From Fimbriimonadaceae bacterium (GTDB lineage Bacteria > Armatimonadota > UBA10988), in contig JADZEX010000033.1 in assembly GCA_020850355.1 (NCBI GenBank), positions 49,764 to 113,763 of the forward strand: a DNA stretch of 64,000 nucleotides. Direction: 5' to 3'. Numbering within the stretch: position 1 is the stretch's first letter; the number at the start of each line of letters is the position of its first letter. The notes below the pieces were generated by a model. It saw only the letters and a list, made by a program, of their open reading frames with translations, made no database searches and was not told where the DNA came from. Positions 39,003 to 42,679 of the stretch are shown piece by piece. Both the position numbers and the translations under genes were made by a program.

Positions 39003-39172
39003 CGCCCGCTCCCGCCGCGCGCATGTACAACGTGCTTGCCAAACCGCCCGGCCGCCTGGGGTTGCGACACAGGGACGTCACCTTTTGGCATAGAGGAGGG
39101 TGGTAAGGGGGACTTAACCTGGTGGGGGCGCTGGGCGGGTAGACTTCCGCCGCGGGCGGAGCGTTGCGAAGC

Positions 39173-40012
39173 ATGACGGTGTCGGCGAGCAGCGGCGAAC
39201 TGACGGTCGAGGGCTGGGTCGTGGCGGGTGCGCCGCCAGCGACGGCGTTGCCGGTCCAGCGGCTGGGCCGTGAGGAGGTCTTGCAGCGCTACCCGCTGCT
39301 GGCCGGCTGCGACCTCAGCGGCGCCCGGCTGACCGGGTTGTGGCTCGAAGACGCCGACCTCCGCGGGGCCCTGCTGGCCGGCGCCGACCTCCGTGGCGCG
39401 GTGCTCCGCGGCGCCCTGCTGCGCGATTGCGACCTGCGCGGCTGCGATCTGCGGGGCGCCAGCATGGAAGGCGTCGACTTGCGCCGCGTGACCGCCGACG
39501 AAACCACGCTGCTCGACCCGAAGTGGCAGGTGGTGCTGCAACTGCTCTACACCGCCGACGGCGAGACGGCCGCCCTGGCCGGGCAGGACCTGACCGCCAT
39601 CAGCCTCCCCGGCGCCGACCTCTGCGACGCCGACTTGCACCAGGTCAGCCTCCGCTCGGCCCAACTCAAGGGCGCCGCGCTGCGTCGGGCGCGACTCTGT
39701 GGCAGCGACCTGCACTGCGCCAACCTCGTCGCCGCCGACCTGCGCCAGGCCGATCTGAGCGATGTCACGCTGAGCTGGGCCGACCTCAGCGGCGCGCGGC
39801 TGAGCTGCGCCCGGCTGATCGGCAGCCGGCTCGGCGGGGCCAACCTGCGCGGCGCCTGCCTCCACGCCGCCGACCTGCGCGGCGCCGATCTGAAGCTCGC
39901 CAACCTCACCCAGGCCGACCTCCGCCGCGCCGACCTCACCGGCGCCGACCTCAGCGGCGCCAAACTGACCGGCGCCCGACTGGCGTTGGCGGTCGGCCTA
40001 CCGGCAGACTGA
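39173..40012 (+). CDS. Pentapeptide-repeat protein
   Basis: 279 aa from ATG 39173 (TTG 39164 possible). Two runs of A(D/N)LxG-type repeats: GCDLSGARLTGLWLEDADLR onward (about 45-105) and DLTAISLPGADLCDADLHQV onward (about 135-270), separated by a 25-residue non-repeat segment LLDPKWQVVLQLLYTADGET. The right-handed quadrilateral helix is often a protein-DNA mimic or scaffold; no role assigned. No signal peptide. A fragment of its 3' end recurs at 42186. Confidence 0.9.
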   Translation: MTVSASSGELTVEGWVVAGAPPATALPVQRLGREEVLQRYPLLAGCDLSGARLTGLWLEDADLRGALLAGADLRGAVLRGALLRDCDLRGCDLRGASMEGVDLRRVTADETTLLDPKWQVVLQLLYTADGETAALAGQDLTAISLPGADLCDADLHQVSLRSAQLKGAALRRARLCGSDLHCANLVAADLRQADLSDVTLSWADLSGARLSCARLIGSRLGGANLRGACLHAADLRGADLKLANLTQADLRRADLTGADLSGAKLTGARLALAVGLPAD

Positions 40013-40144: not shown

Positions 40145-40174
40145 TTGAGACCGCCAAGCCTGGAGTGCTAGACT
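40145..40174 (+). promoter_or_regulatory. Promoter for the first HTH gene
   Basis: TTGAGA, an 18-bp spacer, then TAGACT preceded by TG (extended -10, TGCTAGACT). Predicted start near 40181, giving a 20-nt leader to ATG 40201. Confidence 0.6.
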
Positions 40175-40200
40175 AGCGACACCAAGGGTGGGTGAAGCCA

Positions 40201-40440
40201 ATGCAAGGCGGTGTCGCGATACGTCCGGGGGGGGGGGGCAAGTGCAAGGTCCTATCAATGGCGGAGACGCGGGCGTTGCAAGCGGTGGCCGACCATGGCT
40301 GCCTGCAGCGCGCGGCCGTGGCGCTTGGCGTCTCCTACAAGACGGTGGAGTCGCAGCTCATGGCATGTCGAAGCAAGCTCGATAGCATCTCGACGACGCA
40401 AGCCGTGGCCACGGGGCTACGCGAGGGCCTGATCACTTAG
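40201..40440 (+). CDS. Small LuxR-type HTH protein, copy 1, with G12 tract in 5' region
   Basis: 79 aa from ATG 40201, or 60 aa from ATG 40258. ETRALQAVADHGCLQRAAVA then LGVSYKTVESQL and RSKLD form a GerE/LuxR C-terminal helix-turn-helix without any sensor domain. Alignment with copy 2 (LSMAETRALQ against LSEAETKALQ) suggests translation starts upstream of the internal Met, through a 12-G tract at 40227. One-base slippage there would change the frame for a start at 40201. Probable small transcription regulator, target unknown. Confidence 0.7.
   Translation: MQGGVAIRPGGGGKCKVLSMAETRALQAVADHGCLQRAAVALGVSYKTVESQLMACRSKLDSISTTQAVATGLREGLIT
40227..40238 (+). repeat. Poly-G tract (G12)
   Basis: Twelve consecutive G in the 5' part of the HTH gene. 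Current length keeps ATG 40201 in frame with the HTH. Tracts this long commonly slip. Confidence 0.9.
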
Positions 40441-40588: not shown

Positions 40589-42055
40589 ATGCAAACCAAA
40601 GTAGCCAGTTTTGCCTTTGCCAGTCTACTTCTGGCGATGGTCGGGCAACCCGGTGCGAGCGCTGCGGATCGGCTTCGATCCCCCGCTGTGTTCGTCGACG
40701 GCTCCGCGCTCGTACCGGTCCGCCAACTGGCGGAGACGCTGCAGGCCAGGCTGGAGTTCGTTGACCCGAGGATCACCATCGCCGTGGTGGGCTAGCGGAT
40801 CGACCTGCTGCTCGGTAGTGGTAGCGCCAGGGTCACCAACGAGGCGGGTACCTGGTCGTTGGCCTTGCCCGTCGCGCCGCGCGAGATCGGCAACGTGGCT
40901 TATGTGCCTCTGCGGGTCGTCGCCGAGCAGTTCGGTGCCAGCGTGAGGCTGCATGAGACCGAAGGCGTTCTCAGCGTTGTCGCCGGCGAGCAGACCGTGC
41001 TGATCGAGGTCGGCCCAGGCGGTCAGCGGCCGGCGCACGCCATCATCCAGGCCGACTACGCGGCTGCCCTGCGGAGCGACACCGTAGCGGCTTGGAAGGC
41101 CTTCCTGGCCAAGCGGCCGGACGCATCCCTGACGAACGAAGGCCGGCAGCATTTGGGGCAGGCGATCAAGCGACTGGCCGACGCGGACTGGCAGGCGGCG
41201 GAGAAGCAAGGCTCCGAAGACAGCCTGTACGGTTTCGCGGAGCAGCACAGCGACGACCCACGGGCATCCGCGGCTCGGCTCCGGGCTGGCGATCTGGCCT
41301 GGCAGGCGCTCGGTGCGAAGCCCGCTGAGGCCGGGTACGCCCGCTTCGTCGAGCGGTATGGACCTGACCCTCGGAGCCTGGAGGCGCGCGCCAAGCTGGC
41401 GGATTACGCCTGGACGCGCGCCACCGCAGCGGACACGCCTGAGGCCTACGACAACTTCCGACGCAAGCACGTGGGCGATCCGCGGGCAGCGATCGCAACC
41501 CAACGGATTGGGGGCGAGGAGATCACCGTCTACGAGGCACAGCAACGGGGGCTGGTGACCGCCCGAGTAACCGGCAGCGGCCTGGGCGAGGTCCGGCTGA
41601 GCCTGACGCGCACGACCAATCGGCGCCTGCGGGTCATTGTGCCTGCCGGCGCGTACTTCGTCTGCCAGGGCGGCGGTGCGCAGAACATGGTCGGCGGCCG
41701 GCAGACGACCGTGGACCTCGTCGGATCGGCAACCGCCTCGCTCAGCGTGCCGGCGTCGTGCGCCAACATGCACCTGGACACGCCCAACTGGTCCACCAGC
41801 TTCGCCATCCGTCCTTCGCCAGAGGGCAGCGAACTGGCGCGACTGATGGAAGTCATCGGCCGGGAGCAGCCATCCGAAGTCGTGGCGCAGGTAGCCGTGT
41901 GGGCGGTCACCGACAACCCGACGCGCGCCGAGCTGATGTCTACCTACGTCACAAACTTCGGAGGCCCAGCCGCAAGCCAGGCCGACCTGAATGCGGCCGC
42001 TCAGCTACTTCGCAAGGCCGGTATTGAGCCAACCGGCAAGCACCTGTTCTACTGA
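40589..42055 (+). pseudogene. Stalk-domain (copper amine oxidase N-like) protein broken by TAG
   Basis: ATG 40589 with a good GGAGG 7 nt upstream. Signal FAFASLLLAMVGQPGASA, then a stalk domain of the PF07833 type: AVFVDGSALVPVRQLAETLQ...FVDPRITIAVVG, TAG at 40793-40795, then in the same frame RIDLLLGSGSARVTNEAGTW and AYVPLRVVAEQFGASV. The rest (residues 150-310) has helical repeats like AFLAKRPDASL / FAEQHSDDPRASAARLR / FVERYGPDPRSLEAR, and ends in a beta-domain with AVWAVTDNPTRAEL. Full frame 488 codons. The internal stop makes the secreted product a 68-aa fragment unless read through; it could also be a base-call error. Confidence 0.85.
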
Positions 42056-42185
42056 GGCACCAGCCGCGCACTACCAAACCACACCAGGGGGCCGGCGACT
42101 GGTGCCCACCTGGTCAGCGGCAATCGGCGCGGGGCCTGCTGCCACGGCGCCGGGCTCCGCGCCCGCTGGGTTGCCATCAGCCAGA

Positions 42186-42265
42186 CCCACCCAGGCCGAC
42201 CTCCGCCGCGCCCACCTCACCGGCGCCAAACTGACCGGCGTCCGGCTGGCGCTGGCGGTGGGTCT
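42186..42265 (+). pseudogene. Remnant of the pentapeptide-repeat gene 3' end
   Basis: CACCCAGGCCGACCTCCGCC and following bases match the last 100 bp of the gene at 39173, with one repeat unit missing. The translation QADLRRAHLTGAKLTGVRLA compares with QADLRRADLTG...AKLTGARLALAVG. No start and no stop at the old position. The rest of 42056-42466 shows nothing else recognisable. Confidence 0.8.
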
Positions 42266-42466
42266 CGAGTCCGGGGGCAACCCGCAGCGCCCGCAGCGCG
42301 TCACAGGACACGCCGTGGGTTACCTGCAACAGGACTAGCCAGCATTCTCTGAAAGACTGCTACCTCCGGGAACTCACCCATGGTCACCACCGAACCTGAT
42401 CAGACAAAACGGCGACGTCACGGGTGGGTGATCGCAGTGGAAGGCAATGCCGAGGAGGGCGCAGGG

Positions 42467-42679
42467 ATGTTGGCTCAGACATGCGAAGCTCTGTCGGAGG
42501 CTGAGACCAAAGCGCTGCAGGCGCTTGCCGATCATGGCTGCGTGATGCGTGCGGCGAAGGCGCTGGGTGTCGCATACAAGACCGTGGAGTTGCAGTTGGC
42601 GGCCTGTCGTAGGAAACTCGACTGCGTCTCGACCGCACAAGCCGTGGCCAAGGGCCTGCGCCAGGGACTGATCAGGTGA
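42467..42679 (+). CDS. Small LuxR-type HTH protein, copy 2
   Basis: 70 aa from ATG 42467, chosen because GAGGAGG lies 8-9 nt upstream; the ORF-track start at 42380 has no ribosome site. SEAETKALQALADHGCVMRAAKALGVAYKTVELQLAACRRKLD is a paralogue of copy 1 (about two thirds identical over 55 residues by eye). No poly-G tract here. Followed by a strong terminator. Confidence 0.75.
   Translation: MLAQTCEALSEAETKALQALADHGCVMRAAKALGVAYKTVELQLAACRRKLDCVSTAQAVAKGLRQGLIR

Follow-up and report, generated by a model that had tools for sequence, protein, structure and literature searches.

Can a tiny regulatory gene be switched on and off by the gain or loss of single bases in a run of twelve Gs close to its start codon? 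This question is raised by a G12 tract in a stretch of DNA of 64,000 nucleotides (hereafter the window) from a Fimbriimonadaceae bacterium. A check of the sequence finds the tract exactly where the original prediction had placed it, between ATG 40201 and the helix-turn-helix (HTH) of the encoded protein.

40201 to 40440, plus strand: mini-regulator 1, 79 amino acids with a single LuxR/GerE-type HTH; ATG start at 40201, TAG stop.
40227 to 40238, plus strand: the G12 homopolymer tract, part of the Pro-Gly-Gly-Gly-Gly codons in the disordered N-terminal tail.

Counted from the first base of ATG 40201, the tract begins 26 nt downstream. The reading frame from this ATG passes through the tract as CCG GGG GGG GGG GGC, enters the HTH and ends at the TAG at 40438-40440, and the translation of 40201-40440 is MQGGVAIRPGGGGKCKVLSMAETRALQAVADHGCLQRAAVALGVSYKTVESQLMACRSKLDSISTTQAVATGLREGLIT.

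How unusual is such a tract? We scanned the draft assembly of this genome (6.67 Mb in 117 contigs, 95% complete), in which G12 is the longest G/C run and the sole run of at least 10. Elsewhere in the genome the longest G/C runs have exactly 9 bases and number five, lengths of 10 and 11 being absent; in the 64-kb window no other G/C run is longer than 6. The continuation probabilities of runs in a 464-kb sample are 0.12-0.2 at lengths 4-6, and a geometric extrapolation from the G7 and G9 counts, made after the tract had been seen, gives about 0.03 expected runs of at least 12 per genome. G12 is an outlier, though not an impossible one. In Campylobacter, poly-G tracts of at least 7 inside ORFs define candidate phase-variable genes (the PhasomeIt cut-off; PMC6321876); the present tract, with its G/C length of 12, exceeds this cut-off for hypermutability and lies inside an ORF, in frame after ATG 40201.

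The shorter runs of this genome show where long runs are usually found. Most G/C runs of 7 fall within called genes, where they are spread along the gene length, with no general enrichment near gene starts. None of the five runs of 9, in contrast, is inside a called gene, and some precede a start by 28-165 nt. Their absence from called genes suggests that long slippery runs are selected against there. Since the 9-runs are all outside called genes while the 7-runs are mostly coding, a G12 in coding sequence is exceptional, and the rival reading that places it in a 5′ leader is still live. A G9 of this genome (L012:1501-1509 on contig C100, minus strand) precedes the called start of a 1353-nt gene by 28 nt; the N-terminus of this gene resembles a signal peptide, and the G9 is also in frame with an upstream ATG.

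Is mini-regulator 1 a real gene? A paralogue of it is located 2.2 kb downstream, together with a gene remnant.

42437 to 42679, plus strand: mini-regulator 2, the tract-free paralogue; start at GTG 42437, or at ATG 42467 with SD GAGGAGGG.
42185 to 42265, plus strand: duplicated 3′ end (remnant) of a pentapeptide-repeat gene, a copy of the end of the upstream gene 39164-40012.

Because the 3′ end of the pentapeptide-repeat gene recurs at 42185-42265, the paralogue evidently arose by tandem duplication of this gene end plus the regulator. It lacks the tract and, as had been claimed, can be aligned upstream of the internal Met: the conserved coding sequence (CKVLS) starts upstream of ATG 40258. 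The alignment extends over both flanks of the tract with a length difference of 3 nt, and the frame is therefore kept between the copies; the paralogue sequence at the tract position is also G-rich (GGCGCAGGG). A comparison of the last 65 codons shows 52 base differences between the copies, of which 28 are at third positions; dN is 0.19, dS 0.95 and dN/dS 0.20. This ratio, together with the coding conservation upstream of ATG 40258, indicates that mini-regulator 1 is a real gene under purifying selection.

Other measures were also applied to the ORF. A codon model scores the ORF frame at 0.2 versus -44 and -41 for the other plus-strand frames. Codon usage favours the ORF frame strongly over the other five frames, although this usage is not typical of the genome; mini-regulator 1 was overlooked by a simple gene finder. 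We also scored both copies against a profile built from nine relatives, of which eight belong to other genomes of the phylum and one to this genome; mini-regulator 1 reaches 57.7 bits and the paralogue 61.7 bits. Between both mini-regulators lies a Cu-amine-oxidase-N1 domain gene (40589-42055) with an in-frame TAG at 40793-40795. The reading frame and the domain match of this gene resume beyond the TAG, which is therefore a nonsense mutation, a polymorphism or an assembly error.

Next, what kind of protein is encoded? On its own, mini-regulator 1 scores 12.8 bits against GerE (PF00196), below the Pfam cut-off of 23.5 bits. All 11 aligned family members match GerE, the best with 1.6e-14, and the profile with relatives finds DegU, GerE, LiaR, VraR and NarL in the PDB. 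In an AlphaFold2 model from a two-row alignment (mean pLDDT 69), helices are predicted at residues 20-32, 35-42, 46-60 and 65-74, which is the four-helix fold of GerE and NarL. The top Foldseek folds are the DNA-binding domains of DegU, VraR, LiaR and GerE, with TM scores by target of about 0.67-0.69 and a probability of 1.00, at E-values of only 0.06-0.1. The domain is best described as a LuxR/GerE-type HTH. The assignment to the LysR-type regulators (PF00126) was rejected, with an HTH_1 score of 25.3-25.5 bits versus a cut-off of 26.6 and no effector domain; a LysR-type protein is expected to combine an N-terminal winged HTH with an effector domain in about 300 amino acids. HTH-only short ORFs of 62 amino acids occur elsewhere in the phylum, including in another family, and stand-alone mini-regulators are therefore not unusual there. 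The N-terminal tail is unconserved between the two copies and predicted to be disordered. Residues 1-15, including the Gly run, have pLDDT values below 50, so that any in-frame tract length is probably tolerable.

Where does translation of mini-regulator 1 start? Three features bear on this question.

40145 to 40174, plus strand: sigma-70-like promoter TTGAGA-18-TAGACT with an extended -10 TG; a consensus match only.
40191 to 40195, plus strand: Shine-Dalgarno-like GGTGA, 5 nt before ATG 40201; the block is kept in the paralogue.
40258 to 40260, plus strand: ATG inside the ORF, past the tract and in the HTH frame, with a weak Shine-Dalgarno sequence.

The extended -10 site that had been proposed is present, but the distance of 20 nt given for it needs correction, as the site ends 26 nt upstream of ATG 40201. 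Given its position, the putative transcription start point is about 20 nt upstream of this ATG. It is the only such promoter-like site in 2.9 kb, while shuffles give 0.3 expected. The Shine-Dalgarno duplex of ATG 40201 reaches -9.6 kcal/mol including upstream bases, in about the best 5% of random windows. For ATG 40258 the value is -3.8 kcal/mol, about the median of random windows, and this codon is not conserved, being Glu in the paralogue. Between the tract and the HTH helices, ATG 40258 is the sole in-frame start, and no usable HTH-frame start was found between the tract and this ATG. Just upstream of it, the CKVLS residues change in a coding-like manner, with four of six changes in third codon positions. 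The L-S/T pair at the helix 1 start, also upstream, is kept family-wide.

Because coding constraint precedes ATG 40258 and no start intervenes between it and the tract, ribosomes most likely cross the tract in the G12 frame from ATG 40201. The earlier claim that the tract is translated thus most likely holds, for a gene that is real and constrained. Two points in the sequence would speak against this: between the paralogues, mini-regulator 1 shows no third-position bias in its first five codons (none of five), and the strongest Shine-Dalgarno sequence of the paralogue belongs to ATG 42467, a more internal start than GTG 42437.

What does a slip of one base do? In silico, G11 and G14 yield 76-77 amino acids of unrelated sequence and G10 and G13 yield 60-61, in each case without the HTH, whose loss was scored against the profile for G11 and G13. 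A one-unit change removes the HTH from the product of ATG 40201, while the internal ATG 40258 is still available. The original prediction had stated that ATG 40201 falls out of frame and that only ATG 40258 is left. The former is correct, and ATG 40258 is indeed the only HTH-frame start downstream. It is not the only remaining start, since upstream GTG codons enter the frame: GTG 40188 at G11 and G14, and GTG 40211 at G10 and G13, both with poor and badly placed ribosome sites. Initiation at ATG 40258 is independent of the tract and yields a 60-aa protein with all four predicted helices. As predicted helix 1 starts exactly at this Met, initiation there would not be fatal to the fold. The “off” state could consequently be a short, low-level isoform rather than nothing, and “off” may mean “low”.

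We propose that G12 is a start-proximal translational contingency tract and that mini-regulator 1 is switched by slippage, a reading to which we give about even chances. Translation from ATG 40201 would run through the twelve Gs, which would encode a floppy Gly linker. Slipped-strand mispairing in replication would then add or remove one G. With G12, and also with G9 and G15, the product would be the 79-aa LuxR/GerE-type DNA-binding protein, longer or shorter by one residue per three bases. With G11 or G13, an out-of-frame peptide of 61-76 amino acids without the HTH would be made, and the regulator would be off, or down to leaky initiation at ATG 40258. Beyond the tract, its frame, the constraint, the predicted fold and the slip consequence described above, we infer that slippage is frequent and reversible enough in nature and that the switching is used. 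Reversible phase switching at G12 is plausible but unproven, and the locus is a credible candidate for a contingency locus of known kind.

Several observations count against this contingency reading. The genome encodes MutS and MutL homologues, which should lower single-base slippage, and slippage may for this reason be slower than in Campylobacter, which is not known to have the MutS/MutL mismatch-repair pathway. There is one tract and not a phasome. The location of the five G9 runs outside called genes makes a position in a 5′ leader the base-rate expectation, against a coding switch, and repeats of about 12 are sequenced and assembled inaccurately. A protein search of 291 genomes of the phylum gave no orthologue with a tract, only distant HTHs, and protein searches of genome contigs and viral contigs gave no orthologues.

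Might the tract have no selected role? A G-rich codon run could have drifted and slipped to twelve in a tolerant, disordered tail, so that switching would occur without being selected; we regard this neutral origin as possible, though on the unlikely side. The unconserved, disordered tail agrees with it, as do the single occurrence of such a tract in the genome and the paralogue, which is tract-free yet G-rich at the same position. The in-frame TAG in the neighbouring Cu-amine-oxidase-N1 gene also agrees with it, in that part of the locus may be decaying. However, the HTH is under purifying selection (dN/dS 0.20), with a profile score of 57.7 bits against 61.7 bits for the paralogue, and the length of twelve gives the correct frame. 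Moreover, GGG-GGG-GGG-GGC persists though synonymous changes could interrupt the run, and the other long runs, those of 9, are kept outside called genes.

Might the tract instead be untranslated? With a start at ATG 40258, G12 would lie in a 77-nt leader, where its length would tune translation or RNA structure with no frame switch. We consider this improbable. The G9 runs outside called genes, the homologous 62-aa HTH-only ORFs in another family of the phylum, the beginning of predicted helix 1 at Met 40258 and the best Shine-Dalgarno sequence of the paralogue, serving the more internal ATG 42467, all point this way, and the espR leader tract is a precedent (PMC11898584). Nevertheless, ATG 40258 is unconserved and has a weak Shine-Dalgarno sequence, a start there would lose the conserved Leu-Ser, and the CKVLS segment upstream of it changes like coding DNA.

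Finally, a sequencing or assembly artefact, from poly-G read ends or a wrong run length, is very improbable. In its favour are the draft state of the genome (117 contigs), the occurrence of long G runs at contig ends or next to N gaps in some relatives, and the reduced rate at which short-read platforms detect homopolymers of 8 (PMC11140927). Against it, 24 kb separate the tract from the end of the contig, the paralogue can be aligned to both flanks, a length of 12 gives the right frame, and the assembly has no other run of at least 10.

Do related genomes carry comparable tracts? In a genome of the same family (G001), the sole run of at least 9 is a G10, located 17 nt into a 509-aa ORF.

L117:1-1527, minus strand: 509-aa ORF of G001 with G10 at its 5′ coding end; a possible three-state phase-variable gene.

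By eye, this ORF appears to encode a signal peptide; its matches to Ig-like and carboxypeptidase-regulatory domains are weak, below the Pfam cut-offs. Two ATGs, 5 nt apart and in different frames, precede the G10: this length opens the second ATG, G8 and G11 open the first, and G9 and G12 open neither. The two-ATG arrangement resembles the multi-start repeat genes of Haemophilus. In both of these well-assembled genomes, members of one family, the longest run is start-proximal and in frame, which raises, but does not prove, the contingency-locus reading. More doubtfully, the family may use a few start-proximal poly-G contingency tracts, here as a switch of a regulator and its regulon, and in G001 as a switch of a secreted Ig-like surface protein with three states (start 1, start 2 and off).

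Very long G/C runs in draft genomes of two relatives, G003 (L092, L094, L099) and G055 (L058), are near contig ends or N gaps and are probably sequencing or assembly artefacts. A phylum-wide phasome drawn from the long G runs of relatives was rejected, given these positions of the G003 runs and no consistent start-proximal pattern in the rest. In a distant relative, a C10 (L016:566-575), which is G10 on the coding strand, occupies the Shine-Dalgarno position of a divergent sigma-factor-like ORF. This C10 was rejected as a parallel, as it lies about 5 nt upstream of that ORF and outside the HTH gene. No synteny with L147 was seen.

Most of what is known about homopolymer contingency loci comes from host-associated pathogens. 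If the switch proposed here is real, the mechanism would also operate in a largely uncultured lineage with high G+C, and a poly-G tract in the gene of a tiny DNA-binding protein would subject an entire regulon to random switching. Our literature search found no paper joining phase variation and Armatimonadota.

How does the locus compare with known systems? GerE of Bacillus subtilis (PDB 1fse) and the C-terminal HTH of LuxR and NarL are, like mini-regulator 1 in its predicted fold, four-helix LuxR-type domains, and GerE is likewise a stand-alone protein of about 74-79 amino acids. The relationship is remote, with 25-27% identity in the Foldseek alignments. GerE is not known to carry a G tract.

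In Mycobacterium tuberculosis, a regulon is tuned through a homopolymer that precedes the regulator gene espR (PMC11898584). The two cases share a high-G+C genome and one homopolymer at a small DNA-binding regulator, but the espR tract belongs to the 5′ UTR and modulates translation (PMC11898584), whereas the tract described here is most likely coding and would give on/off control. Homopolymers at 5′ ends have been proposed as a general device for gene inactivation, as in the poly(A) of inlA (PMC2831843). Such tracts and G12 are both start-proximal coding homopolymers at which a slip truncates or garbles the protein early; in the survey of 5′ tracts, poly(A) and poly(T) are enriched at the 5′ ends (PMC2831843), while here the tract is poly-G and its target is a regulator. 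In Campylobacter NCTC 11168, all poly-G/C tracts of at least 8 vary, and most are within ORFs (PMC6321876). The intragenic poly-G tracts of Campylobacter and G12 have in common a poly-G on the coding strand inside an ORF, a length in the hypermutable range and a frameshift upon the change of one base (PMC6321876). A Campylobacter genome carries many such tracts, most of them of 9-10 bases and with observed variation (PMC6321876), in contrast to the single tract of 12 here, known from one assembly of a genome with 70% G+C, MutS and MutL.
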